64,000 nucleotides of DNA, taken from NCBI RefSeq assembly GCF_027625935.1, contig NZ_CP115300.1, forward strand, positions 4,278,001 to 4,342,000. Direction: 5' to 3'. Positions 27,060-51,835 of this stretch are shown piece by piece. How positions within the stretch are numbered: the first letter of the stretch is position 1; the number at the start of each line of letters is the position of its first letter. The notes below the pieces were generated by a model that saw only the letters and a program-made list of their open reading frames with translations, was not told where the DNA came from and ran no database searches. The position numbers and the translations under genes were made by a program. This DNA is from Streptomyces camelliae (GTDB lineage: Bacteria > Actinomycetota > Actinomycetes > Streptomycetales > Streptomycetaceae).

Positions 27060-31007
<3,948 letters not shown>

Positions 31008-31058
31008 GGGGTTCCTTCCGGGGTGCGTCTGGGGAGCGTCTGGGGGCGGGATCCGGGG

Positions 31059-37867
<6,809 letters not shown>

Positions 37868-37871
<4 letters not shown>

Positions 37872-40800
37872 GTGTGGTCCTCGGGTACGCGGGGGTTCGG
37901 GCGTGCGGAGGCGACGGGTGTACGGGGCACAGCGGGCCGCCGGGACCGGGTGAGGTCGGCCAGGGCGGTCGTGAACAGGTCGGTGATCCCGGCGAGCACG
38001 GCCGGGTCCAGCAGGCCCTCGGGGGCGGTGACGGCACCGGTGACGGACGGCCCCTCGTCCCAGAGTTCGCAGGCCAGTTCGGCCTGGGGGCCGAGGGCGG
38101 GCGCGGCCAGCGGGGCGAACCGCAGGCCGTCGGACTCGGCCGGGGCGGACGGCCGTTGCAGCACCAGCAGGGTCTGGTAGAGCGGGGCGCGGCCGCCGGG
38201 CGGGCGGGGGGCGAGCGCGGCGATCTCGTCGGTGCCGAGCGCGGTGTGCGCGAACACCTCCAGCAGCCGGTCGCGGACCAGCGCCAGCAGGGCGGTGGCG
38301 TCCAGGGCCGGGTCGGCGGCGATCCGTACGGGCAGGCCGTTGGCGAAGTAGCCGACGGTGCGCTCATGCGCGTCCGCGCGGTCCTCGACGATCGTGCCGA
38401 CGGCGAGGTCGCGCTGCCCGGTGACCTCGGCCAGCGCCCGCCACCAGGCCGCGAGCAGCGGGACCAGCACCGGCTGGCGGTCGCGGGCGGCGAACTCCCG
38501 CAGCCGGGCGGTGGTTTCGGCGCCGAGCGCGAACCGGTGCGTGACGAGGGGCCGGGTCCACAGCTCCCGCGGCCCGAGCGCCGCGCCGCCCGGCCACTCG
38601 GGCGCGGTCAGTCCGGCGAGCCGGCCGCGCCAGAACTCCTGTGCCTCGGCGGCGCCGGGGCGCGGGAGCCCGGCGGGCGGTGCGGGTGCGGCGGGCGGAG
38701 TGCGGCCCGCGTAGGCGGCGGCGAGGTCCGCGACCAGGATCTCCTCGGACCGGGCGTCGTAGACGATGTGGTGCACGGCGAGCAGCAGCAGCTGCCGTCC
38801 CGGGCCCGCGGCCAGGACGGCGGCGGCCAGCAGCGGCCCGTGCTCGACGTCCTGGACGAGCGCCGCGAGCTCCTGGGTGACGGTGTGCTCGCCGGCCGCG
38901 GCCTCCGTCTCCGTACGGATCAGCAGCTCAGGCGGCACCGGGCGGCCGGCCACGCGCCGGTGCGGCCGGCCCGCCTGCCGGGGGAACGTGGTCCGCAGCG
39001 CCGGATGCGCGCCGACCACCGCCGTGAGGGCGCGGCCCAGCCGCTCCGGGTCCAGCGTGCCGCTGACCGCGATCCGGCTGACGGCGACATGACCGGGCGC
39101 ACCGGGCGCGAGCCGTGAGGCGAGCCAGAAACGCCGTTCACCGGGGGAGAGTTCGAAGGACGCGGTCCCACCGTCACCGGTGCCGCCGTCACCGGTACCG
39201 CCGTCGCCGCCGTGCCCGCCGCCCCGGCGCCGCGCGGCCAGCACCTCCAACTCGCTCACCCTCGGGTGCTCGTACACGTCCCGGGCCGACAACGACACCC
39301 CGAACAACCGCGACAACCGAGCGGCGATCCGCAGTACATGCAGGGAACTGGCCCCGACGTCCAACAGATCCGCGTCCGGCTCCAGGTGGGGCGCGGAGAG
39401 TATGTCCCGCGTCTGGTGCAGCGCAGGGCTGACGGGAACGGGCCCCGAGACCACGGCAGCGACAGGAGCGGCTGCAGGAGCCGAACCCCCCGCAGACGCG
39501 GAGTCGGGCACAGCCGCGGATCCACCCACCGGAGCCCGGCCGCCCGCCGCCTCCGCCACTCGCTGCCGCACCCACCCCTCCACCGCCCGCAGGTCCGCCT
39601 TGCCGGTGGGGCCCAGGGGGACGGGGTGCAGGTGGAGGTAGCGGTCGGGGTGGAGGTGGGCCGGGAGGTGGTCGGCGGCGGCGCGGCGGAGCGCGGCCTC
39701 CGGCAGGGGTGCGGCGTCCTCGCTCGCGTACGCGCACACCGTGCCCGTGACCGTGGCGTGCTCGTCGCGCAGCGGGACGAGGAAGGCCTGACGGACACCG
39801 GGGAAGCCGGCGACACGCCGCTCCACCTCGCCGGGCTCCACCCGGTACCCGCGGATCTTGAACTGCCGGTCGGCCCGGCCCACGAAGTTCAGCCGGCCCG
39901 CGTCGTCCATGCGGACCCGGTCACCGGTGGCGTACGCGCGCAGCGTGCCGTGTCCGGGGAGGCTGACGCGGGAGAAACGGCGGGTGTTCTCCTCGGGCCG
40001 GTTCACATAGCCGAGGGCGAGTCCGTCGCCAGCGACCCACAGCTCGCCCTCGGCGCCGGGGGCCACGGGGCGCCGGGTGCCGGGGTCGAGGACGGCCAGC
40101 ACGGTGCCCCGGACCGGACGGCCCACCGGAATGCCGTACGGCGCCGCGGTGTCGGCGGGCCGGACGTCGTGCGTGCTGACGAAGACCATCGACTCGACCG
40201 GTCCGTAGCCGTTGGTGACGCGCAGGCCGGGGTGCCGTTCGAGGAGGACCGCGATGTGCGCCGGGGACAACCGCTCGCCGCCGCACATCAGATGCCGTAC
40301 GCCGGTGAACGCGCCGGGGTCCTCGTCGACGATGAGGTTGACGAGGGAGCTGGTGAGCCACAGCGTGTCCACCCCGTGCCCGGCGACGAGGGCGCGCAGT
40401 CCGTCCGGGGTGAGCAGCGGCTCGTCGGGGGTCACACAGGTCCCCCCGTTCATCAGCGGACCGAAGACCTCCAGCGCGCCCGCGTCCCAGTACGGCGCGG
40501 CCAGCAGCGGCATGACGGTGCCGGGCCCGAACGCGGCGTATCCGCCGTCGACGAAGGTGCGGACGAAGGCCCGGTGCGGCACGATCACGCCCTTGGGGCG
40601 TCCGGTCGAGCCGGAGGTGAAGAAGACACACGCGGGATCGTCGGCACCGACGTCCGCCCGCTCACCCGCCCCGTGGGGGGCCGGGCGGTTGGACTCGGGC
40701 AGCCGCAGGATCCGTACTCCGGCCGGGAACCGCCCGGCGGGCACGGCCGCCGCGTCGCCGGTCGCGTCCAGGACGACGCGTGCGCCGAGGTCCTCGAACA

Positions 40801-41137
40801 CGCCGTGCAGCCGCCGCGCGGGCCAGGCCGGGTCCACCGCGGCGTAGGCGGCGCCGGCCAGCAGTACGCCGAGCGCGGCGACGGCGAACTCCCCGCCCGC
40901 CGTGGCGGCCACCGGCACGAAGCCGCGGGGCGGGACACCCGCGTCCACGAGCAGGTCCCGTACCGCGCGGGCCCGCCCGGCCAGTTCGGCGTAGGTCAGG
41001 CGGGTACCGCCCGGTCCGCGCAGCGCGGTGGCCCGCGGGGACCGGGCGGCCTGCCGCAGCACCGCCTCGTGGGCGGTGGCGCCGGCCGGGACGGGACGCC
41101 CCGGGCCGACGGCGACCGAGAGGTGCGGGCCGGTCAT
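37868..41137 (-). CDS. Initiating NRPS: A-T-C, Val-like specificity
   Basis: 1089 residues starting directly with an adenylation domain (about 20-540): FTSGSTGRPKG near 175, PYWDAGALEVF and GYGPVESMVF. The code D-A-L-W-M-G-G-V-F is close to the valine code DAFWIGGTFK. The carrier domain near residue 597 reads DVGASSLHVLR, with the phosphopantetheine Ser kept but the usual GGxS altered. A C domain (about 655-1060) follows with HHIVYDARS, so the Gly of HHxxxDG is Ala. The next NRPS begins with another C domain, giving a C-C junction. Linkers are Ala/Pro- and GTGDGG-rich. The start ATG overlaps the carrier-protein stop (ATGA). Confidence 0.93.
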
Positions 41138-41382
41138 GACAGACGTGGCGCCGCGCCCAGCACCGCCGCCAATTCGGCGGGGGTCGACTGGAGTACGGCG
41201 GTGAAGTCGGCCTCGATACCCCAGAGTTCCTCGACGCGTTCGACGACGAGGACGGCGTGGAAGGAGTCACCGCCCTGGGCGAGGAAAGTCGAATCGTCGG
41301 CGATCTCGGTACCCAGGATGTCGGCCAGGAGGAGCCGGACGCTTTCCGCGTCGATTTCGGAAGTGACGTCGAGTCGGTTCAT
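41134..41382 (-). CDS. Stand-alone peptidyl carrier protein
   Basis: The 82-residue acidic four-helix protein has the attachment motif AQGGDSFHAVLVVE, where Ser receives 4'-phosphopantetheine. The helix 1 (DAESVRLLLADILG) and helix 3-4 (DFTAVLQSTPAELAAVLG) patterns match. ATG 41382 is preceded by ggagaaagc. As the first gene of the operon, coupled by ATGA to the first NRPS, it is a good partner for the stand-alone adenylase and the luciferase-like enzyme. It may deliver a modified amino acid to one of the two neighbouring C domains. Confidence 0.92.
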   Translation of the reverse strand: MNRLDVTSEIDAESVRLLLADILGTEIADDSTFLAQGGDSFHAVLVVERVEELWGIEADFTAVLQSTPAELAAVLGAAPRLS

Positions 41383-41655
41383 GTCGCTTTCTCCAGTGAT
41401 CCGCAATGATCCGTGAGCCGGGCCGGGGGTCGGATTCCTAGCTCCATCCGCTGTCCCCCACGACCGGAAGAAGAAAGACGGCAAACCTGGACTTACCCAT
41501 AGAGAACAACCCCCGTTGTGAGGCGCCCGGTGAGCGCAGAGTGATCGAACGACCGCACGAAAGGCCGTTTCACGATGTTGTAATCCCGCCTCCATGGCCG
41601 TCCAGGGACACCGGCGCGCATGATGATGCAGACAGGAAACTGCAGGGGGGAAGAA
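41383..41655. promoter_or_regulatory. Divergent promoter region of the NRPS operon and its regulator
   Basis: The 270 bp between the leftward carrier-protein start and the rightward regulator start is comparatively AT-rich, with gaagaaagacggcaaacctgg and acgatgttgtaatcccgc sections. It must contain the promoters of both units. I could not pick a reliable -35/-10 pair or a clear operator, though the LuxR-type regulator very likely binds here. Confidence 0.45.
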
Positions 41656-42705
41656 TTGGACAAAATCCTTGAATCCGGCCCTTCTCTGCTCCTCCAGCGA
41701 CTGGCACCGGACCACATACGGCTTTATGACTGGGGAGCGACTCAGGCCTTTTTCACGCCGTCGGAGGCCGCCGGTGAACTGGGTATCCCGGAGGCCGCGG
41801 TGGACCAGGCGATCGAGACGCTGGCGGAATTCCATCTGGTGGACCAGGTGGACGGCGCGGAAAACCTGCGGAGCCTGTGTCATGGCGGTCCCTGGTGGCG
41901 CACCGTCCATCCGCATCTGGCCGCCGCCCGTATGGCGAGCGCGGAATCACGGCTGCGTCGACGGCTTTTCGAACTGAACACGCGACGCGATTCCCTGACG
42001 GCGCTCGCCTCGGTGTACACGGCCCGCCCCCAGGAGCGTGCCGGCGCCGCCGAGACCGTCGAGGTCGTCGACGCGCTCCGTGACGTCATCAGCCTGATCG
42101 AGCAGGCCAGCGCCGAGTGCGAGCACGAGATGATCACGTGTCAGCCCGGTGGCGGGCGCCCCACGGAGGAGCTGGAGCAGGCGGTCGCCCGGGACACCGC
42201 GCTGCTGGACCGGGGCGTGCGGATGCGCACGCTCTACCAGCACCCGGCCCGGCGGCACGCCCCCACCCAGGCCTACGTCGAGCGGGTCGTCTCCGCGGGC
42301 GCCGAGGTGCGCACGCTGACCGATCTGTTAGGGCGCATGATCGTCTTCGATCGCCGGATCGCCTTCCTCCCGCACCACCAGCGCCGGGGCGGGGCGGTGG
42401 TGCTGCGCTCCCCCGCCGCCGTGGCGTTCCTGTGCGGCGCGTTCGACCGCGCGTGGGACCTCGCCGTCCCGTTCGGCGCGCCCGAGCACGCCCCGGTCGC
42501 GGTCGACGATCTGCGCCAGGTAATCCTGCGGCTGCTGAGCCAGGGCCTCAAGGACGAGGTGATCGCCCGTCGCCTGGGCATCTCGCTGCGCACCTGCCGC
42601 AAGCACATCGCGGACCTGTTCCAGGAGCTGGACGCCGAGAGCCGCTTCCAGGCGGGCTACCTCGCGGCCACCCGCGACCTGCTGCGGGACACCCCCGCGA
42701 GCTGA
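41656..42705 (+). CDS. Cluster regulator: TrmB-like wHTH and PLD-like domain plus LuxR HTH, with a TTA codon
   Basis: About 349 residues. The N-terminal winged helix (FTPSEAAGELGIPEAAVDQA) resembles TrmB. The middle carries MITCQPGGGRPTEELEQAV and LLDRGVRMRTLYQHPARRH, like the PLD-type ligand domain of TrmB regulators. The C-terminus is a LuxR HTH (VIARRLGISLRTCRKHIADL). TTG 41656 is preferred because aggggggaag lies just upstream; ATG 41620 is the alternative. A TTA leucine codon at 42328-42330 (in DLLGRM) should make translation depend on bldA tRNA. It is divergent from the NRPS operon and is its probable pathway-specific regulator. Three paralogues lie at 46.9-49.9 kb. Confidence 0.85.
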   Translation: MDKILESGPSLLLQRLAPDHIRLYDWGATQAFFTPSEAAGELGIPEAAVDQAIETLAEFHLVDQVDGAENLRSLCHGGPWWRTVHPHLAAARMASAESRLRRRLFELNTRRDSLTALASVYTARPQERAGAAETVEVVDALRDVISLIEQASAECEHEMITCQPGGGRPTEELEQAVARDTALLDRGVRMRTLYQHPARRHAPTQAYVERVVSAGAEVRTLTDLLGRMIVFDRRIAFLPHHQRRGGAVVLRSPAAVAFLCGAFDRAWDLAVPFGAPEHAPVAVDDLRQVILRLLSQGLKDEVIARRLGISLRTCRKHIADLFQELDAESRFQAGYLAATRDLLRDTPAS

Positions 42706-42962: not shown

Positions 42963-45560
42963 TCACAGCGTCTTCCCGGTCGCCGGCCCCACCAGCAGCC
43001 CCTCGCCGAAGCGGTCCACGCGGACCGTGTCACCGTCCTTGATCTCGCCGGAGAGGATCTCCCGGGCGAGCCGGTCACCGATGGCGGTCTGCACCAGGCG
43101 GCGCAGCGGCCGGGCGCCGTAGGCCGGGTCGTTGCCCTCCTCGGCGAGCCAGGCCAGCGCCTCGGGCGTGACCTCCAGGGTGAGCCGGCGCTCGGCCAGC
43201 CGCCTGCCCAGCCGGTCGATCTGGAGCTGCGCGATCCGCTCCAGCTCGGCCTTGTCGAGGGCCGAGAAGACCACCAGGTCGTCCAGCCGGTTGAGGAACT
43301 CCGGCTTGAAGGAGGCCCGGACGACCTCCAGGACCTGCTGCTTCTTCTCCTCCTCACCGGTGATCGGGTCGATCAGGTACTGGCTGCCCAGGTTGGAGGT
43401 GAGCACCAGGATGGTGTTGCGGAAGTCGACCGTGCGGCCCTGACCGTCCGTCAGGCGTCCGTCGTCCAGGACCTGGAGCAGGATGTCGAAGACCTCGGGG
43501 TGGGCCTTCTCCACCTCGTCCAGCAGCACGACGGTGTACGGCCGCCTGCGCACGGCCTCCGTCAGCTGGCCGCCCTCCTCGTAGCCGACGTAGCCGGGAG
43601 GCGCGCCGACCAGCCGGGCCACGCTGTGCTTCTCGCCGTACTCCGACATGTCGATGCGGACCATGGCCCGCTCGTCGTCGAAGAGGAAGTCGGCGAGGGC
43701 CTTGGCGAGTTCGGTCTTGCCGACGCCCGTCGGGCCGAGGAAGAGGAACGATCCGGTGGGGCGGTCGGGGTCGGCGATCCCGGCGCGTGCGCGTCGTACG
43801 GCGTCCGACACGGCCCGTACGGCCTCGGTCTGGCCGATGAGCCGCTTGCCCAGCTCCTCCTCCATGCGCAGCAGCTTCTGCGTCTCGCCCTCCAGCAGGC
43901 GCCCGGCGGGGATGCCGGTCCAGGCGGCGACGACGTCGGCGATGTCGTCGGAGCCGACCTCCTCCTTGACCATCGTGTCCTGGGCGGCCTCCTCCTCGGC
44001 CTCGGAGGCGGCCTCCAGCTCCTTCTCCAGCGTGGGGATCTCGCCGTACAGCAGCTTGGCCGCGCGGTCGAAGTCGCCGTCGCGCTGGGCGCGTTCGGCC
44101 TGGCCACGCAGGTCGTCCAGGCGTTCCTTGAGCTCGCCGACCCGGTTGAGGGACTGCTTCTCCTTCTCCCAGCGGGCGGTCAGGCCGCGCAGTTCCTCCT
44201 CCTTGTCGGCGAGGTCGCGGCGCAGCTTCTCCAGGCGGGTGACGGAGGCCGGGTCGGTCTCCTTGGCGATCGCCAGCTCCTCCATCTTCAACCGGTCGAC
44301 GGCGCGCTGGAGTTCGTCGATCTCGACGGGGGACGAGTCGATCTCCATACGGAGCCGGGAGGCCGCCTCGTCGACCAGGTCGATGGCCTTGTCGGGGAGG
44401 AAGCGGGAGGTGATGTAGCGGTCGGAGAGGGTGGCCGCCGCCACCAGCGCGCTGTCGGCGATCTGCACCTTGTGGTGGGCCTCGTACCGGCCCTTCAGGC
44501 CGCGGAGGATCGCGATCGTGTCCTCCACCGTCGGCTCGGCGACCAGCACCTGCTGGAAGCGCCGCTCCAGCGCCGGGTCCTTCTCGATCCGCTCCCGGTA
44601 CTCGTCGAGCGTCGTCGCACCGACCATCCGCAGCTCACCGCGGGCGAGCATGGGCTTGAGCATGTTGCCCGCGTCCATGGCGGAGTCGCCCCCGGCGCCC
44701 GCGCCCACCACCGTGTGCAGCTCGTCGATGAAGGTGATGATCTGCCCGTCGGAGTCCTTGATCTCGCCGAGCACGGCCTTCAGCCGCTCCTCGAACTCGC
44801 CCCGGTACTTGGCCCCGGCGACCATCGCGCCGAGGTCGAGGGAGACGAGCCGCTTGTCCTTGAGGGACTCGGGGACGTCCCCTTTGACGATCCGCTGCGC
44901 GAGCCCCTCGACGACGGCGGTCTTGCCGACGCCGGGCTCGCCGATGAGGACGGGGTTGTTCTTCGTACGACGGCTCAGCACCTGCACGACCCGCCGGATC
45001 TCCTGGTCCCGCCCGATGACCGGATCCAGCCGGCCCTCGCGGGCGGCGGCGGTGAAGTCGGTGCCGAACTTCTCCAGGGCCTTGTACTGACCCTCGGGGT
45101 CGGCGGTGGTCACGCGGCGTCCTCCCCTGGCCTTCTTGAAGGCCTCCAGCAGCTTCTTCGCATCGGCGCCCTGCGCCTGGAGCACCTCGGCGACCCGGCC
45201 GCCCTTCGCGGCGATGCCGATGAGCAGGTGCTCGGTGGACAGGTACTCGTCGCCGAGGTCCTTCGCGCGCTCACCGGCGTCGGCGAGCACGGCCAGCAGC
45301 TCGCGGTTGGGCTGCGGCGGCGCGACGGTGGACCCGGTCACGCTGGGCAGCGTGGCCAGGATCTTCTCCGTACCGGAGCGTACGGCGGCCTGGTCGGCGT
45401 CGACGGCCGCGAGCAGGTCGGTGATGTTCGCGTTGTCCTGGCCCTGGAGCAGAGCCAGCAGCAGATGAGCGGGGGTGAGGTCCGGGTGTCCCTCGGTCAC
45501 GGCGCGGTTGCTCGCCGCGTTGATCGCGTCCCGGCTCCTGTTGGTCAGCTCGGCGTCCAC
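42963..45560 (-). CDS. clpB: Disaggregase chaperone ClpB
   Basis: 865 residues, the full ClpB length. It has the N-terminal repeat domain, the D1 AAA+ domain with [15 protein letters not shown], the coiled-coil middle domain ([20 protein letters not shown] region) that separates ClpB from ClpA/C, and the D2 domain with [15 protein letters not shown]. With DnaK/DnaJ/GrpE it resolubilises aggregates in the cytosol using ATP. GTG 45560 follows ggaggag. A HAIR operator lies about 60-80 bp upstream, which puts it in the HspR regulon together with the dnaK operon 10 kb away. Confidence 0.98.
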
Positions 45561-46217: not shown

Positions 46218-46553
46218 TCAGGCACTGCGGGGGGTGGCCGAGATGGTTCGCAGATCGGGGTCCGCCGGCTCGGCAAGCCGGTGGTCCCGCTGGTCCAGGT
46301 TCACAAAGATCATTCCGTACCGGATGGCACAGCGCACCGGCTGGGGCGCGCCACGCGGCTTGCGCAGGCATCGGTACGCCCGCACGTCCCCGTCCTCGTC
46401 CCGCGTCACGACCACCGGCTCACCGAACACGGTCACCATCAGCGAGTCGCCGCTGTGGGGGATGGCGGTGACCAGGTCGATGAAGTGCCAGCCGGAGCGG
46501 TAGGCCGTGGCCATTTCGCGGCGGAAGGAACGGTCGTCTGGCGGGGTGGTCAC
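46218..46553 (-). CDS. Rieske-fold protein without iron-sulfur ligands
   Basis: The 111 residues resemble the N-terminal Rieske domain of ring-hydroxylating oxygenases: SGWHFIDLVTAIPHSGDSLM, VTVFGEPVVVTRDEDGDVRA, and FVNLD near the end. The cluster ligands are missing: where CxH should stand the sequence reads YRCLRKPRGAPQP, and the second pair is RCAIRYGMIF, so at most two Cys and no His remain. It therefore should not bind a 2Fe-2S cluster. GTG 46553 is 1 base past the peptide gene's stop, with gtgaggag inside the preceding gene's end, so the two are coupled. It may be a binding or scaffold partner of the peptide; this is inferred from position only. Confidence 0.7.
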   Translation of the reverse strand: MTTPPDDRSFRREMATAYRSGWHFIDLVTAIPHSGDSLMVTVFGEPVVVTRDEDGDVRAYRCLRKPRGAPQPVRCAIRYGMIFVNLDQRDHRLAEPADPDLRTISATPRSA

Positions 46554-46554
46554 G

Positions 46555-46794
46555 TCAGCTCCTCACGCCGTCCTCAGGAAGCGCCGGCCAGGTGGTGTCC
46601 ATCGCGCTCGCCTTGGTGTGCGCGACCGCCGGCCAGGTGGTGTCCATCGCGCTCACGTTGGTGTGCGCGACCGCCGGCCAGGTGGTATCCGCCCGCACGT
46701 CGCCCTTCTCGCTCGCGAAGCCGCTCAGCACCCCCGCGGTCAGCCCCACGGAGAAAGCGGCGACAAGTACCGAGCGAAGCAGTCTCTTGCCCAT
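46555..46794 (-). CDS. Secreted peptide precursor with three DTTWP repeats
   Basis: 79 residues from ATG 46794, or 85 from GTG 46812, which has aggggacc at good spacing. A classical signal segment (KRLLRSVLVAAFSVGLTAGV) is followed from residue 36 by DTTWPAVAHTNVSAM, DTTWPAVAHTKASAM and DTTWPALPEDGVRS, i.e. two exact-length 15-residue repeats and a partial third. Signal peptidase cleavage at VRA-D would release precisely the repeats. I know no family for it. It resembles a multi-core peptide or pheromone precursor. It is co-transcribed with the Rieske-like gene and divergent from a LuxR-type regulator. The repeats come from 45-bp tandem DNA units. Confidence 0.7.
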   Translation of the reverse strand: MGKRLLRSVLVAAFSVGLTAGVLSGFASEKGDVRADTTWPAVAHTNVSAMDTTWPAVAHTKASAMDTTWPALPEDGVRS

Positions 46795-46925
46795 AGTCGG
46801 CTTCGTCCTCACTTGAAGGTCCCCTCTTCCCCCGTCCAGTACGACGATGGCTCATTCGAGCACGTCATGACCACATAATCGATGCATCATGTTCCTGCAT
46901 GTTCAGGACCCTGGGGGGTGGAGAT

Positions 46926-47909
46926 TTGGGAACGAATCGGGATAAAGCTACACATCCCCATGCGGTGACTGAGATGTGCGAGGAAGGTGGCCGTCTCTAC
47001 GCCGATGCCCTGCGCGCCGGACGTATCGCCCGAACAGAGGTGGAATCCGCCCCCTGCCTGCTGGAGTTCGCCCTCCTGCACCCCGATCCCGACGATTCGG
47101 AGTGGCTGCGCCCGCTGCCCGCGCCCGTGGCCCTGGCCCAGCGGCTCAGCCCCCTGGAACGGGAGATCGCGGAGCGCAGGCGACTGTCCATCCAACTTGC
47201 CGATACATTCGAGCCGTTCATGATGCTCAGCAGTCGCATGGCGGCCACCGCGGATTCCATCACCGTGCTGGAGGGCGGGGAGCGCATCAACGCGGCGCTG
47301 AACCTGGCCACCACGCAGTGCCAGACGGAGGTGCTCACCGTCCAGCCGAGCGACCGGCTGTCCGAGAAGAACCTCCTGCGGGGCCTCGAACGCGACAGAC
47401 CGCTCATCGAGCGCGGGGTCCGCATCCGCACGCTGTACCAGCACACCGCCCGGTACAACCCGGAGAAGCTCGCCTACGTCGCCCAGCTGGCCAACGGCAA
47501 GGCGGAGTACCGCACGGTCGACGAACTGGTGGAGCGGCTCATCATCTGCGACGAGACCGTCGCCTTCATCCCCACCCGGGACGACCAGCAGGTCGCCCTG
47601 GAGGTGCGCCAGCCGGGCCTGGTCCGCTACCTGATCAAGGTGTTCGAGTTCATGTGGGACCGGGCGGTTCCGCTGAGCGCCGGCGGCCGGTACGAGACCG
47701 CGCCCGACGGCATCACCGAGATCCAGCACTCCATCGCCAAGCTCCTGGTCGAGGGCCACGTCGACGAGGCCATAGCCCGCCGCCTCGGCATGAACGTCCG
47801 CACCTGCCGCGCCCACATCGCCAAGCTCGCGCAGGCCCTGGGCAGCGGCAGCCGCGCCCAGCTCGGCTACCTCATCGCCCAGTCCGGCATGCTCGACCGG
47901 GACCGGTGA
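46926..47909 (+). CDS. LuxR-type regulator, paralogue 1 (next to the peptide gene)
   Basis: About 327 residues. The N-terminal helical part (LYADALRAGRIARTEVESAP, CLLEFALLHPDPDD) is followed by the ligand-type domain (EVLTVQPSDRLSEKNLLRGL, LIERGVRIRTLYQHTARYNP, ICDETVAFIPTRDDQ) and a C-terminal LuxR HTH (AIARRLGMNVRTCRAHIAKL). TTG 46926 is chosen because the product then aligns with the starts of its paralogues (HPH motif near residue 10); ATG 46899 is an alternative. It shares its upstream region with the DTTWP peptide gene and is a natural candidate to sense that peptide or a related ligand. Confidence 0.82.
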   Translation: MGTNRDKATHPHAVTEMCEEGGRLYADALRAGRIARTEVESAPCLLEFALLHPDPDDSEWLRPLPAPVALAQRLSPLEREIAERRRLSIQLADTFEPFMMLSSRMAATADSITVLEGGERINAALNLATTQCQTEVLTVQPSDRLSEKNLLRGLERDRPLIERGVRIRTLYQHTARYNPEKLAYVAQLANGKAEYRTVDELVERLIICDETVAFIPTRDDQQVALEVRQPGLVRYLIKVFEFMWDRAVPLSAGGRYETAPDGITEIQHSIAKLLVEGHVDEAIARRLGMNVRTCRAHIAKLAQALGSGSRAQLGYLIAQSGMLDRDR

Positions 47910-47931
47910 CGAACCCACGACAGGAGGCCCA

Positions 47932-48921
47932 TTGAGTGGGGCACCGCACCCGCAGCACGGACCCGAAGAGCTGTGTACGGCAGGTACGGAGCTGTACGAA
48001 CGCGCCCTGCGCGAGGGGCGGCTCAGCCGTGTGGAAGCAGAGCCGGCACCCTGTCTGCTGGCCTTCGGGCTGCTTCAGCCGGCCATCGCGGACCTGGACC
48101 GGCTCGAACCCGTCCCCGCGGCCGTCGCCCTGCAGGAACTGCTGCGCACCTCCGCGGAACGCATCGCCGACGAACGCCGGCGGGAGACCCGGCTCGCCCG
48201 GGCCTTCGAGCCGTTGCTGCGCGCCGGCGCCGACCCCACCGCTGCCGTCGGTGAGACACCGGACATCCGCGTCCACAGCGGCCCCGACAGGATCAACTCG
48301 GCCATCTCCCACGCCATGGCCGACGCCTCCGCGGAGCTGCTGACCATCCAGCCGCACGTCGCGCACACCACTCTGCCGCTCGAACGACGGGCCCTCTCCC
48401 TCGACCGCGACCAGGCCCTGCTCGACCGGGGCGGCCGTATCCGCACCCTCTACCAGCACACGCTGCGTCACGCGCCCACCGTCCACAGCCGGTACGAACT
48501 GCTGCGGGGCGATGCGCAGGCCCGCACCCTCAACGAAGTCACCGAGCGGCTGATCGTCGTCGACCGCGGCATCGCCTTCATCCCCGCGAACAAGGACCGC
48601 ACGCTCGCCCTGGAAATCCGTGTCCCGGCCCTGGTCGACTACTTCGTGACCGTCTTCGACCGGTTCTGGCACCTGGCCACCCCCCTGTACCCGCGGACTC
48701 CCCAGCAGCCGTCCGTGGGCGGCATCACCCCCCGTCAGCGTGCCATCGCCACCCTCCTCATCGAGGGCCACACCGACGCCGCCATCGCCGAACGCCTCGG
48801 CATGAACATCCGCACCGCCCGCCTCCACATCGCCAAACTCGCCGCCACCCTCGGCAGCGACAGCCGGGCGCAGCTCGGCTACCTCATCGCACGGTCGGGG
48901 ATGGTGGATCGGGAGCCGTGA
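47932..48921 (+). CDS. LuxR-type regulator, paralogue 2
   Basis: 329 residues from a TTG start (ggagg lies only 4 bases before it). Same architecture as its neighbour: LYERALREGRLSRVEAEPAP, LLTIQPHVAHTTLPLERRAL, LLDRGGRIRTLYQHTLRHAP, VDRGIAFIPANKDRTLALEI, then the HTH AIAERLGMNIRTARLHIAKL. It begins 22 bp after paralogue 1 on the same strand, so both are probably one transcript. Its last 38 bp overlap the 3' end of the convergent paralogue 3. Confidence 0.82.
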   Translation: MSGAPHPQHGPEELCTAGTELYERALREGRLSRVEAEPAPCLLAFGLLQPAIADLDRLEPVPAAVALQELLRTSAERIADERRRETRLARAFEPLLRAGADPTAAVGETPDIRVHSGPDRINSAISHAMADASAELLTIQPHVAHTTLPLERRALSLDRDQALLDRGGRIRTLYQHTLRHAPTVHSRYELLRGDAQARTLNEVTERLIVVDRGIAFIPANKDRTLALEIRVPALVDYFVTVFDRFWHLATPLYPRTPQQPSVGGITPRQRAIATLLIEGHTDAAIAERLGMNIRTARLHIAKLAATLGSDSRAQLGYLIARSGMVDREP

Positions 48922-49927
48922 GCGCGGTCGCCGAGACGGCGGAGGGGCGGCCGTCCAGGCCCACCTGGGCTATGCGGACGCCCAGCTGGGTACGGCTGGC
49001 CGCGCCCAGGGTCTCCGAGAGGCGGGCGATGTGGGCGCGGCAGGTGCGCACGCTGATGCCGAGGCGCTCGGCGATCACCGCGTCCTGGTGGCCCTCCGCC
49101 AGCAGCGCCGCGATGGACTGCTCGCGGTGGGAGATGCCCTCGATGCCCGTGTCGGGGAGCGGGGCCGTCAGCGGGATCGCCAGGCGCCAGAGCCGTTCGA
49201 AGACCGTGACCAGGTATCCCACCAGCGCCGGGTGGCGCAGTTCCAGGGCCATCGTGCGGTCCGCGTTGGCCGGGATGAACGCCACCGTGCGGTCGAAGAG
49301 GATCAGCCGGTCGATGACCTCGTCCAGGGTGCGGGCCTCCACCGTGTCGCCCATCAGCTCCAGGTAGTTCAGCAGGCCCTGGCCGTGGCGGGCCACGTGC
49401 GTGTAGAGGTCGCGCATGCGGACACCCCTGCCGCGCAGGGCCAGGGCGCGGTGCAGGCCCTCGGTGAGTTCCGCCTCGCGGCGGATGCCGCCCGGCTGCA
49501 CGGTGAGCACCTCGGTGGTGCACGCCTCGGTCGCCTCGTCCATGGCCGCCTGGATCCGGGACAGGCCGTCCAGGACCCGGATGGCGCTGCCCTCGGCCGG
49601 GGCCGCCAGCGCGTGCAGCTGCCGGCCGAGACCGGCGTACCACTCGAACGCGGCCACCGCCGAGCCCACCCGGCGCTGGCTCGCGCTGACCTCGTCGTAG
49701 ACCCCGCGCAGCAGCCGGGTCATGACCTCCTGCGGGGAGGTCGGCACCAGCCAGTCCATGTCGTCGGGGTCCGGGTGCAGCAGGGCCAGTTCCAGCAGGC
49801 AGGGCACCTGCTCGACGTCAGTGCGGGACACCCGCCCGCGCCGTACGGCCCGGGAATACACCCGGTCGCCGGCCGCGCACAGTCGGTCGGCGCCGTGTGG
49901 ATGCTCCTCCGCCCCGCGCCCGGCCAT
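48884..49927 (-). CDS. LuxR-type regulator, paralogue 3
   Basis: 347 residues from ATG 49927 (MAGRGAEEHPHG), with gggggtg about 10 bases upstream. The N-terminal part matches paralogue 1 closely (VSRTDVEQVPCLLELALLHP). The central domain has EVLTVQPGGIRREAELTEGL, GRGVRMRDLYTHVARHGQ and FDRTVAFIPANADRTMALEL. The LuxR HTH is VIAERLGISVRTCRAHIARL. It is transcribed towards paralogue 2 and overlaps it by 38 bp at the 3' ends. Divergence between paralogues is high enough to suggest different ligands. Confidence 0.85.
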   Translation of the reverse strand: MAGRGAEEHPHGADRLCAAGDRVYSRAVRRGRVSRTDVEQVPCLLELALLHPDPDDMDWLVPTSPQEVMTRLLRGVYDEVSASQRRVGSAVAAFEWYAGLGRQLHALAAPAEGSAIRVLDGLSRIQAAMDEATEACTTEVLTVQPGGIRREAELTEGLHRALALRGRGVRMRDLYTHVARHGQGLLNYLELMGDTVEARTLDEVIDRLILFDRTVAFIPANADRTMALELRHPALVGYLVTVFERLWRLAIPLTAPLPDTGIEGISHREQSIAALLAEGHQDAVIAERLGISVRTCRAHIARLSETLGAASRTQLGVRIAQVGLDGRPSAVSATALTAPDPPSPTVR

Positions 49928-50030
49928 CGCCCATTTCACCCCCGGTGTGCTGCCACTTCCGCAGCGCAACTATGCGGCGGCGCCGACCGGGTCCGCAACA
50001 CGGCTCACCCCTCACCCCGGGGTGTGCGCC

Positions 50031-51380: not shown

Positions 51381-51830
51381 TCAGTCGTTGTGCTGCCGTT
51401 TCGGCCGCCACACCACCAGCGCGCTGGTCTGCTGCACCTCCTGGTACGGCACCAGGTCGCGGCGGTAGGAGGCGTGCACGGCGGCCTCGCGCTGCTGCAT
51501 CGCGGCCGCCGCGCCGTCCAGGGCCGCCTCCAGCTCCGCGACGCGGGACTGGAGCGCGGCGACCTGGTTCTCCAGTTCGATGATGCGCTTGATGCCGGCC
51601 AGGTTGATGCCCTCGTCCTGCGACAACTGCTGGACGGTGCGCAGCAGTTCGATGTCGCGGGCCGAGTAGCGGCGGCCCCGCCCGGCGGTCCGGTCCGGTG
51701 AGACCAGACCCAGGCGGTCGTACTGGCGCAGCGTCTGCGGGTGGAGTCCGGAGAGCTGGGCCGCCACCGAGATGACGTAGACCGGGGTCTCCTCGGTCAG
51801 TTCATACGGGTTACGCCGACGGCCGTCCAT
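51381..51830 (-). CDS. hspR: Heat-shock repressor HspR (MerR family)
   Basis: 149 residues. The MerR-type winged helix occupies residues about 14-80: YVISVAAQLSGLHPQTLRQY, DRLGLVSPDRTAGRGRRYS and ARDIELLRTVQQL. A coiled-coil dimerisation helix follows (IIELENQVAALQSRVAELEA). HspR binds HAIR sequences with DnaK as co-repressor. It is the last gene of its own operon, which gives feedback control; the HAIR sites at 55571-55591, 55623-55643 and 45620-45640 are its evident targets here. The start is taken as the second Met of the MMDGRRRN frame. It follows dnaJ by 5 bp. Confidence 0.96.
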   Translation of the reverse strand: MDGRRRNPYELTEETPVYVISVAAQLSGLHPQTLRQYDRLGLVSPDRTAGRGRRYSARDIELLRTVQQLSQDEGINLAGIKRIIELENQVAALQSRVAELEAALDGAAAAMQQREAAVHASYRRDLVPYQEVQQTSALVVWRPKRQHND

Positions 51831-51835
51831 CACTC

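Follow-up and report, generated by a model that had tools for sequence, protein, structure and literature searches.

What does a cell say with a gene that encodes several copies of one five-residue sequence, and which protein reads it? The question is raised by a locus in a 64,000-nucleotide stretch of Streptomyces camelliae DNA (contig NZ_CP115300.1, positions 4,278,001 to 4,342,000; hereafter the window), where a small gene for a precursor with three DTTWP cores lies divergent from the gene of a LuxR-type regulator that we call RegA. From sequence comparisons, and with a probability of roughly 0.78, we propose that the two form a peptide signaling pair, in which an exported, species-specific pentapeptide pheromone would be sensed by RegA.

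A conserved peptide gene at one locus

The window precursor starts with a basic and then hydrophobic leader, followed by three DTTWP copies at a spacing of 15 residues (D42, D57, and D72), with VRA immediately preceding the first copy. A leader and three 15-residue repeats had been described in a first-pass annotation of the window, and both stand. Its 79-residue reading from ATG 46794 is less likely than an 85-residue reading from GTG 46812, because 99 of the 103 deduplicated loci retain the RTKP motif at residues 2 to 5 of the longer form. The precursor stop lies one base ahead of a Rieske-like open reading frame (ORF), which confirms the spacing given in that annotation.

A protein database search with the precursor yielded 14 proteins that share its leader but vary in their cores; the window's own cluster is among the 14. 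The leader is conserved between precursors, with a median net charge of +5 in residues 1 to 14 before its hydrophobic part (by hydropathy), while the cores differ. Scanning genome contigs with the Rieske-like protein gave 403 relatives; the best 80 of these, our named loci, comprise 78 titled Streptomyces, one titled "Actinobacteria bacterium," and one Kitasatospora. The precursor is present at all 80 (78 by pattern, L048 and L091 by eye and a second pattern), and RegA is divergent from and directly adjacent to it at 80 of 80. At the 78 pattern-found loci, the distance between the precursor end and the start of the Rieske-like gene is −4 to +5 bases. Most relatives are 54 to 101 residues long, and a few are longer.

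We sampled 200 Streptomycetaceae genomes and found the Rieske-like gene in 51; all 51 belong to one genus, which contributed 63 genomes to the sample. The precursor adjoins it in every one of the 51 (30 and 20 in separate scans, plus G060, counted from the position next to the Rieske-like match, its core not having been read). RegA orthologs (E ≤ 1e-95) occur in 50 of the 200 genomes, all within the 51. The sole Rieske-positive genome without an intact RegA match, G136 (locus L164), has RegA in two tblastn pieces and retains the peptide gene. Two expectations of the first-pass annotation survived here: a repeat-peptide family exists outside the source strain, with homologs in public databases and across Streptomyces, and the regulator homologs are tied to the peptide, all RegA orthologs lying at precursor-carrying loci. 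Given these homologs, the precursor is not a chance ORF; its gene represents a family conserved in Streptomyces at a single locus.

Cores are uniform within a precursor and hypervariable between species

We compared core anatomy in 111 precursors (the window and L016 to L125, some redundant). The core consensus is [D/N]-x-x-W-x, all 295 Trp residues lie in cores, and position 1 is D in 281 cores, N in 13, and F in 1. Precursors carry 1 to 10 copies. The same tetrapeptide recurs in all copies of 81 of the 84 multicopy precursors and the same pentapeptide in 54 of the 84, and 22 different consensus tetrapeptides occur among the 111. In 46 of them, the precursor C terminus is exactly core residue 5. 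A further 20 more divergent loci add DSGWT (seven copies, L175), DIAWS (nine, L165), and DPVWD (four, L167), and L157 and L166 each have one odd core copy. The cores are uniform within a precursor and hypervariable between species.

Codon usage speaks to how this uniformity is kept. In 371 copy pairs within precursors of the 103 deduplicated loci, core residues 1 to 4 show 302 synonymous versus 4 nonsynonymous codon differences, and three spacer codons of the same pairs show 168 synonymous versus 721 nonsynonymous differences. Since synonymous differences dominate in the cores and nonsynonymous ones in the spacers, core uniformity is not merely recent duplication. The pattern in the cores points to selection that keeps the peptide itself, and it argues that the ORF is translated. 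Codon variability in the leader (0.15 at third positions, against 0.10 and 0.11 at first and second positions) is by itself weak support for translation.

RegA co-varies with the core

Over 73 loci with complete genes (Mantel test, 499 permutations), core distance correlated with RegA protein distance at r = 0.544, and likewise at 0.544 given ClpB (p = 0.002). No correlation was found at these loci with RegC (−0.01), the Rieske-like protein (0.00), or ClpB (−0.02), RegB and RegC being RegA paralogs encoded next to it. RegB gave 0.195 over 52 loci, at which RegA gave 0.542. Co-variation with the core is specific to RegA, and along RegA the association is highest at residues 131 to 160.

Two residue pairs stand out among 103 loci. 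Between core residue 2 and RegA residue 145, the combinations are Ser-Met (57/57), Thr-Val (38/39), and Val or Leu with Val (7/7). Core residue 5 pairs with RegA residue 230 as Pro-Gln (29/29), Val/Ile/Leu-Gly (18/18), and Ser/Asp/Gly/Asn/Thr-Arg (52/54); of two cores ending in Ala, one goes with Arg230 and the other with Gly230. The pairing of core residue 2 with residue 145 looks like size complementarity. The equivalent position is invariably Val in RegC (74 of 74 loci) and without pattern in RegB, so that neither shows a residue code. The first-pass annotation had offered the repeats as ligands of the regulators; RegA behaves as such a receptor, but the correlation is weak for RegB and absent for RegC.

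A tree of ClpB DNA from 77 loci requires at least 18 changes at core residue 2, and the independent pairs that lie on supported branches match residue 145 in 15 cases of 15 (p = 6.1e-5). For Pro-Gln, 8 or 9 of 9 such pairs are concordant (p = 0.008); for Val/Leu/Ile/Ala-Gly, 8 are concordant and 1 is opposed (p = 0.039). A set of 20 loci was fetched after the rule was seen; L164 was left out, and RegA could be read in the other 19. Here the Ser/Thr rule held in 7 of 7 (Ser-Met 6/6, Thr-Val 1/1), Val-Val in 1 of 1, and Ser/Asp/Asn/Thr-Arg at core residue 5 in 11 of 11, with five mixed-residue loci not scored. Residues new to the rule paired as Ile-Val (5/5), Pro-Leu (3/3), and Phe-Ala (1/1), and one Leu core carried Val145. 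By eye, the RegA of S. rubrogriseus (P0077) has Met145 and Gln230, for which the code predicts a D-S-x-W-P core; the RegA proteins closest to it in our set go with DSHWP.

RegA carries a PLD-like sensor

The structure model of RegA comprises a PLD-like alpha/beta domain and a helix-turn-helix (HTH). The sensor is similar to TrmBL2 over profile positions 37 to 242 and shares its PLD-like fold with 5box, 5bpd, 2f5t, and 3qph; a sensor of the TrmB/TrmBL2 kind is thus present. At the N terminus there is no TrmB Pfam match, and TrmBL2 alignments reach residue 21, but with root mean square deviations of 13 to 22. Pfam detected no autoinducer-binding domain, only GerE and other HTH families and a weak DUF7436, and no tetratricopeptide repeat (TPR) family among matches up to E = 1. 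PADLOC gave a weak match only, in the HTH region. RegA therefore lacks the combination of autoinducer-binding domain and GerE HTH that defines LuxR-type acyl-homoserine-lactone receptors, its sensor being PLD-like.

The region between the divergent peptide and RegA genes is highly conserved and contains the dyad TCCTG-N6-CAGGA at 98 of 103 loci. The S. camelliae genome (9.6 Mb) holds a single exact copy, at this place, and RegA may regulate itself through it. Because the dyad (46893-46908) overlaps ATG 46899, RegA may start at TTG 46926, and its start is ambiguous between the two.

The S. camelliae genome has 15 matches to RegA, at least nine of them long. Within about 1.5 kb on each side of these matches, we found no second precursor with repeated [DN][ST]xW cores (other peptide types were not sought), and single chance motifs of this form lie in each of four other nearby ORFs. 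Other RegA-like proteins of this genome might have different small molecules or peptides as ligands.

Weighing the receptor reading against its alternatives

Several observations weigh against RegA as the receptor of the core or against the residue code. The sole Thr-Val exception, an FTEWP core with Leu145, breaks the pattern; in the later-fetched set a second Leu core went with Ala145, and the core residue 5 rule failed in 3 of 3 cores ending in Gly (RegA 230 being Asn, Gln, and Gln). Leu145 with Gln230 occurs in 13 of 120 listed database RegA homologs (P0015 to P0134), whose cores were not read. A third-position control over 99 loci gave correlations with core distance of 0.31 for both the leader and RegA codons 1 to 30, so that local linkage exists. 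On a RegA tree built without codons 126 to 235, core residue 2 and residue 145 change 17 times each, but just three core residue 2 pairs fall on supported branches, all three concordant, which leaves the test underpowered; Pro-Gln agreed in 2 of 2 pairs there, and Val/Leu/Ile-Gly in 1 of 3 with 2 undecided. A tree from RegA codons 1 to 90 gave one concordant supported pair each for core residue 2 and Pro-Gln and two pairs neither way for Val/Leu/Ile-Gly. An operator-based regulon search in the same genome was uninformative, with 152 sites at up to 2 mismatches versus 167 for a reversed-pattern control. The Leu145/Gln230 class, met once among loci with read cores (FTEWP), may mark a further core type.

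The third-position correlations are what would be expected if the adjacent core and RegA genes were simply inherited or exchanged together and hence looked associated. Yet the Rieske-like gene, equally near on the other side, shows no correlation with the core (third positions, −0.04 to 0.11), and third positions in the rest of RegA give 0.04 to 0.27. In the sensor region, first and second positions reach 0.49 (codons 121 to 150) and 0.44 (codons 151 to 180), against 0.27 and 0.14 for third positions. Residue 145, moreover, tracks core residue 2 almost perfectly, in the later-fetched loci as well and in every independent pair. Linkage is present in part, yet it does not account for the sensor-region signal; the adjacent-gene and third-position controls disfavor it as the sole cause, a reading that we find scarcely credible.

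The invariant core Trp and the strongly conserved Rieske-like gene directly downstream are consistent with a different scheme, akin to that of ribosomally synthesized and posttranslationally modified peptides (RiPPs), in which the Rieske-like protein would modify the core, perhaps at Trp, and RegA would sense the finished compound as an autoinducer. Rieske [2Fe-2S] clusters are held by two Cys and two His. The Rieske-like protein (C62-x-R64, C75-x2-R78) lacks this ligand set: in 131 of 131 sequences compared, some of them redundant, Arg stands at both His positions and the two Cys are retained. The first-pass annotation, in which the protein lacks Fe-S ligands, is to be corrected on the Cys. 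Its Pfam Rieske match is below the cutoff (17.8 versus 20.3 bits), the fold is supported by profile hits on dioxygenase alpha subunits (E = 6e-5), and the protein is far more conserved than the regulators. With 111 residues it has no mononuclear-iron domain, its sequence shows no co-variation with the core, and the conserved gene map contains no other recognizable maturase. We regard such a modified product as unlikely. Of the two fates earlier offered for the repeats, ligands or modified products, the signal-like behavior stands and modification is unnecessary to explain the data; the Rieske-like protein could be a helper acting on constant parts, namely, the leader and Trp. The same co-evolution of core and RegA would also arise if the precursor stayed in the membrane, with the leader as an anchor, which its hydropathy allows, and the cores holding RegA there as a private anti-regulator with no diffusible signal. 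Many copies per chain, exact C-terminal ends, and hypervariability between species fit released peptides better, and with a signal sequence or anchor of the usual topology, the cores would be expected to face outside, which makes a tether very improbable. We conclude that the core and RegA, which co-evolve in an allele-specific manner, behave as a genuine peptide-receptor pair, one for which the literature searched has no description.

Locus layout and the S. coelicolor counterpart

The order clpB, PPOX, Rieske-like, peptide, divergent RegA, RegB, RegC, and hspR is conserved across Streptomyces, and the window has in addition a periplasmic binding protein gene between clpB and the hspR-like gene (Table 1). 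The divergent LuxR-type regulator followed by two paralogs, as first annotated, is confirmed, with RegC convergent. Where contigs reach, 0 to 4 RegB-like copies stand in tandem between RegA and RegC across species (L046, L052, L075, and others), and RegC follows them. A three-protein nonribosomal peptide synthetase (NRPS) with a thioesterase adjoins clpB (27060-42705, including a divergent LuxR-type paralog). The NRPS and its divergent paralog are real, but nothing was found that connects either with the peptide, and the earlier suggestion that peptide sensing controls the NRPS is dropped.

Table 1. Coordinates of the features of the peptide/RegA locus and its surroundings in the window
Feature	Position	Strand	Basis
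Fourth LuxR-type paralog, 36% identity to RegA	41620-42705	.	Divergent from NRPS
clpB	42963-45560	-	Named by eye from sequence and synteny
Rieske-like protein, 111 residues	46218-46553	-	Directly 3' of peptide gene; Pfam, profile, alignment
Peptide precursor gene, 85 residues, leader and three DTTWP cores	46555-46812	-	ORF from GTG; family homology
DTTWP core copy 3, residues 72-76	46585-46599	-	Sequence
DTTWP core copy 2, residues 57-61	46630-46644	-	Sequence
DTTWP core copy 1, residues 42-46	46675-46689	-	Sequence
Conserved dyad TCCTG-N6-CAGGA, candidate RegA operator	46893-46908	.	Divergent region; putative function
RegA, proposed peptide receptor, 336 residues	46899 or 46926 to 47909	+	Co-variation, fold, HTH
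RegA PLD/TrmB-like sensor	Residues ~118-262 of RegA	+	Fold comparison
RegA residue 145 codon, Val in window; partner of core residue 2	47331-47333	+	Co-variation
RegA residue 230 codon, Gln in window; partner of core residue 5	47586-47588	+	Co-variation; fails for Gly cores in later-fetched loci
RegA LuxR-type HTH	Residues 274-330 of RegA	+	Domain match
RegB, RegA paralog	47932-48921	+	48% identity to RegA
RegC, convergent RegA paralog	48884-49969	-	49% identity to RegA; without co-variation with core
hspR-like MerR gene	51381-51833	-	HspR named by eye from sequence and synteny

In S. coelicolor, SCO3661 is clpB and SCO3668 is hspR, according to PMC2631018, and SCO3665 and SCO3666 are given as LuxR-family regulators of 327 and 394 residues in PMC3282765. 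Since six larger genes separate clpB from hspR in the window, SCO3664 should be RegA. SCO3664 insertions are listed with those that increased actinorhodin more than 50-fold (PMC6585502); whether complementation restored the SCO3664 mutant is not stated in the text consulted. Judged by gene order, SCO3664 would be the positional RegA counterpart and a strong negative modulator of actinorhodin, and by analogy the peptide/RegA circuit probably gates antibiotic production. S. coelicolor A3(2) is not named among the 23 relatives listed in a search with the S. coelicoflavus precursor.

Discussion

We envisage that the small gene would yield a precursor that contains a single kind of species-specific peptide, roughly five residues long ([D/N]-x-x-W-x; DTTWP in the window), in 1 to 10 copies; the basic and hydrophobic leader would direct this precursor out of the cell. 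Proteases would then cut out the core, which often ends exactly at the C terminus or comes after an AxA-like site. The released pentapeptide would reenter through a BldK/Opp-type oligopeptide ABC transporter. Inside, it may bind the PLD-like sensor of RegA, with core residue 2 near residue 145 and core residues 3 and 5 near residues 152 to 161, 190, and 226 to 230, as co-variation suggests. RegA would bind the dyad between the two genes and control the peptide/Rieske-like operon and further targets.

How does such a circuit compare with known ones? TrmB and TrmBL2 share the PLD-like sensor fold and sequence similarity with RegA; unlike them, RegA has a C-terminal LuxR-type HTH, and its proposed ligand is a peptide, whereas the solved TrmB sensor binds sugar. 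In yeast alpha-factor-type precursors, tandem repeats of a single short pheromone come after a secreted leader. The precursor described here shares that layout, but the system is bacterial and its proposed receptor is an intracellular DNA-binding regulator rather than a membrane receptor.

Rap-Phr systems use Phr pentapeptides. The RRNPP systems of Firmicutes, above all Rap-Phr, resemble the present one in their small propeptide with a basic and hydrophobic N terminus and the mature peptide toward the C terminus, in the adjacent regulator gene of 250 to 500 residues, and in paired specificity, as described in a survey (PMC10075063). Of the five features used there, a propeptide of 10 to 100 residues (85 here), a receptor of 250 to 500 residues (336), and adjacent genes (at all named loci) are found here. 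RegA is no TPR receptor, and the predicted leader is compatible, by charge and hydropathy, with the Sec secretion that precedes exopeptidase maturation. RegA differs in its PLD/TrmB-like sensor and GerE-type HTH, and the precursor in its up to 10 identical copies and its Streptomyces host. Sharing three of the five features, RRNPP would be the closest kind by mode of action, and the present system would work alike without membership.

The same survey calls actinobacterial signals typically small molecules, and a 2026 review names gamma-butyrolactones as Streptomyces signals. Literature searches by core strings, SCO tags, and topic, with partial coverage, found no description of the peptide/RegA system. 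A small extracellular peptide has been tied to Streptomyces differentiation in S. coelicolor, where BldK imports a peptide of 655 Da, described by its mass only, and different strains may use different peptides, as with the cores here (PMC9640686, a pangenome paper). The 45 core pentapeptides weigh 532 to 691 Da and none 655, and we claim no identity with that peptide.

We lean, by a small margin over even odds, toward a broader picture: a genus-wide Streptomyces pheromone language in which each species would have its own [D/N]-x-x-W-x pentapeptide, an intracellular TrmB/PLD-type one-component receptor, a residue code (core residue 2 with 145, core residue 5 with 230), pherotypes that co-diverge independently of flanking genes, and gating of antibiotics. 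Streptomyces species are the makers of many clinical antibiotics. To our knowledge, the TrmB/PLD fold has not been known to read peptides; if the proposal is true, this would be a new class of peptide signaling in which that fold does so, and the core peptides would be candidates for oligopeptides of the type that BldK-like transporters take up. The locus family offers a natural set of more than 100 matched ligand-receptor alleles. A short, cheaply synthesized pentapeptide with a predictable receptor code could be tested in dozens of species and might switch antibiotic programs.

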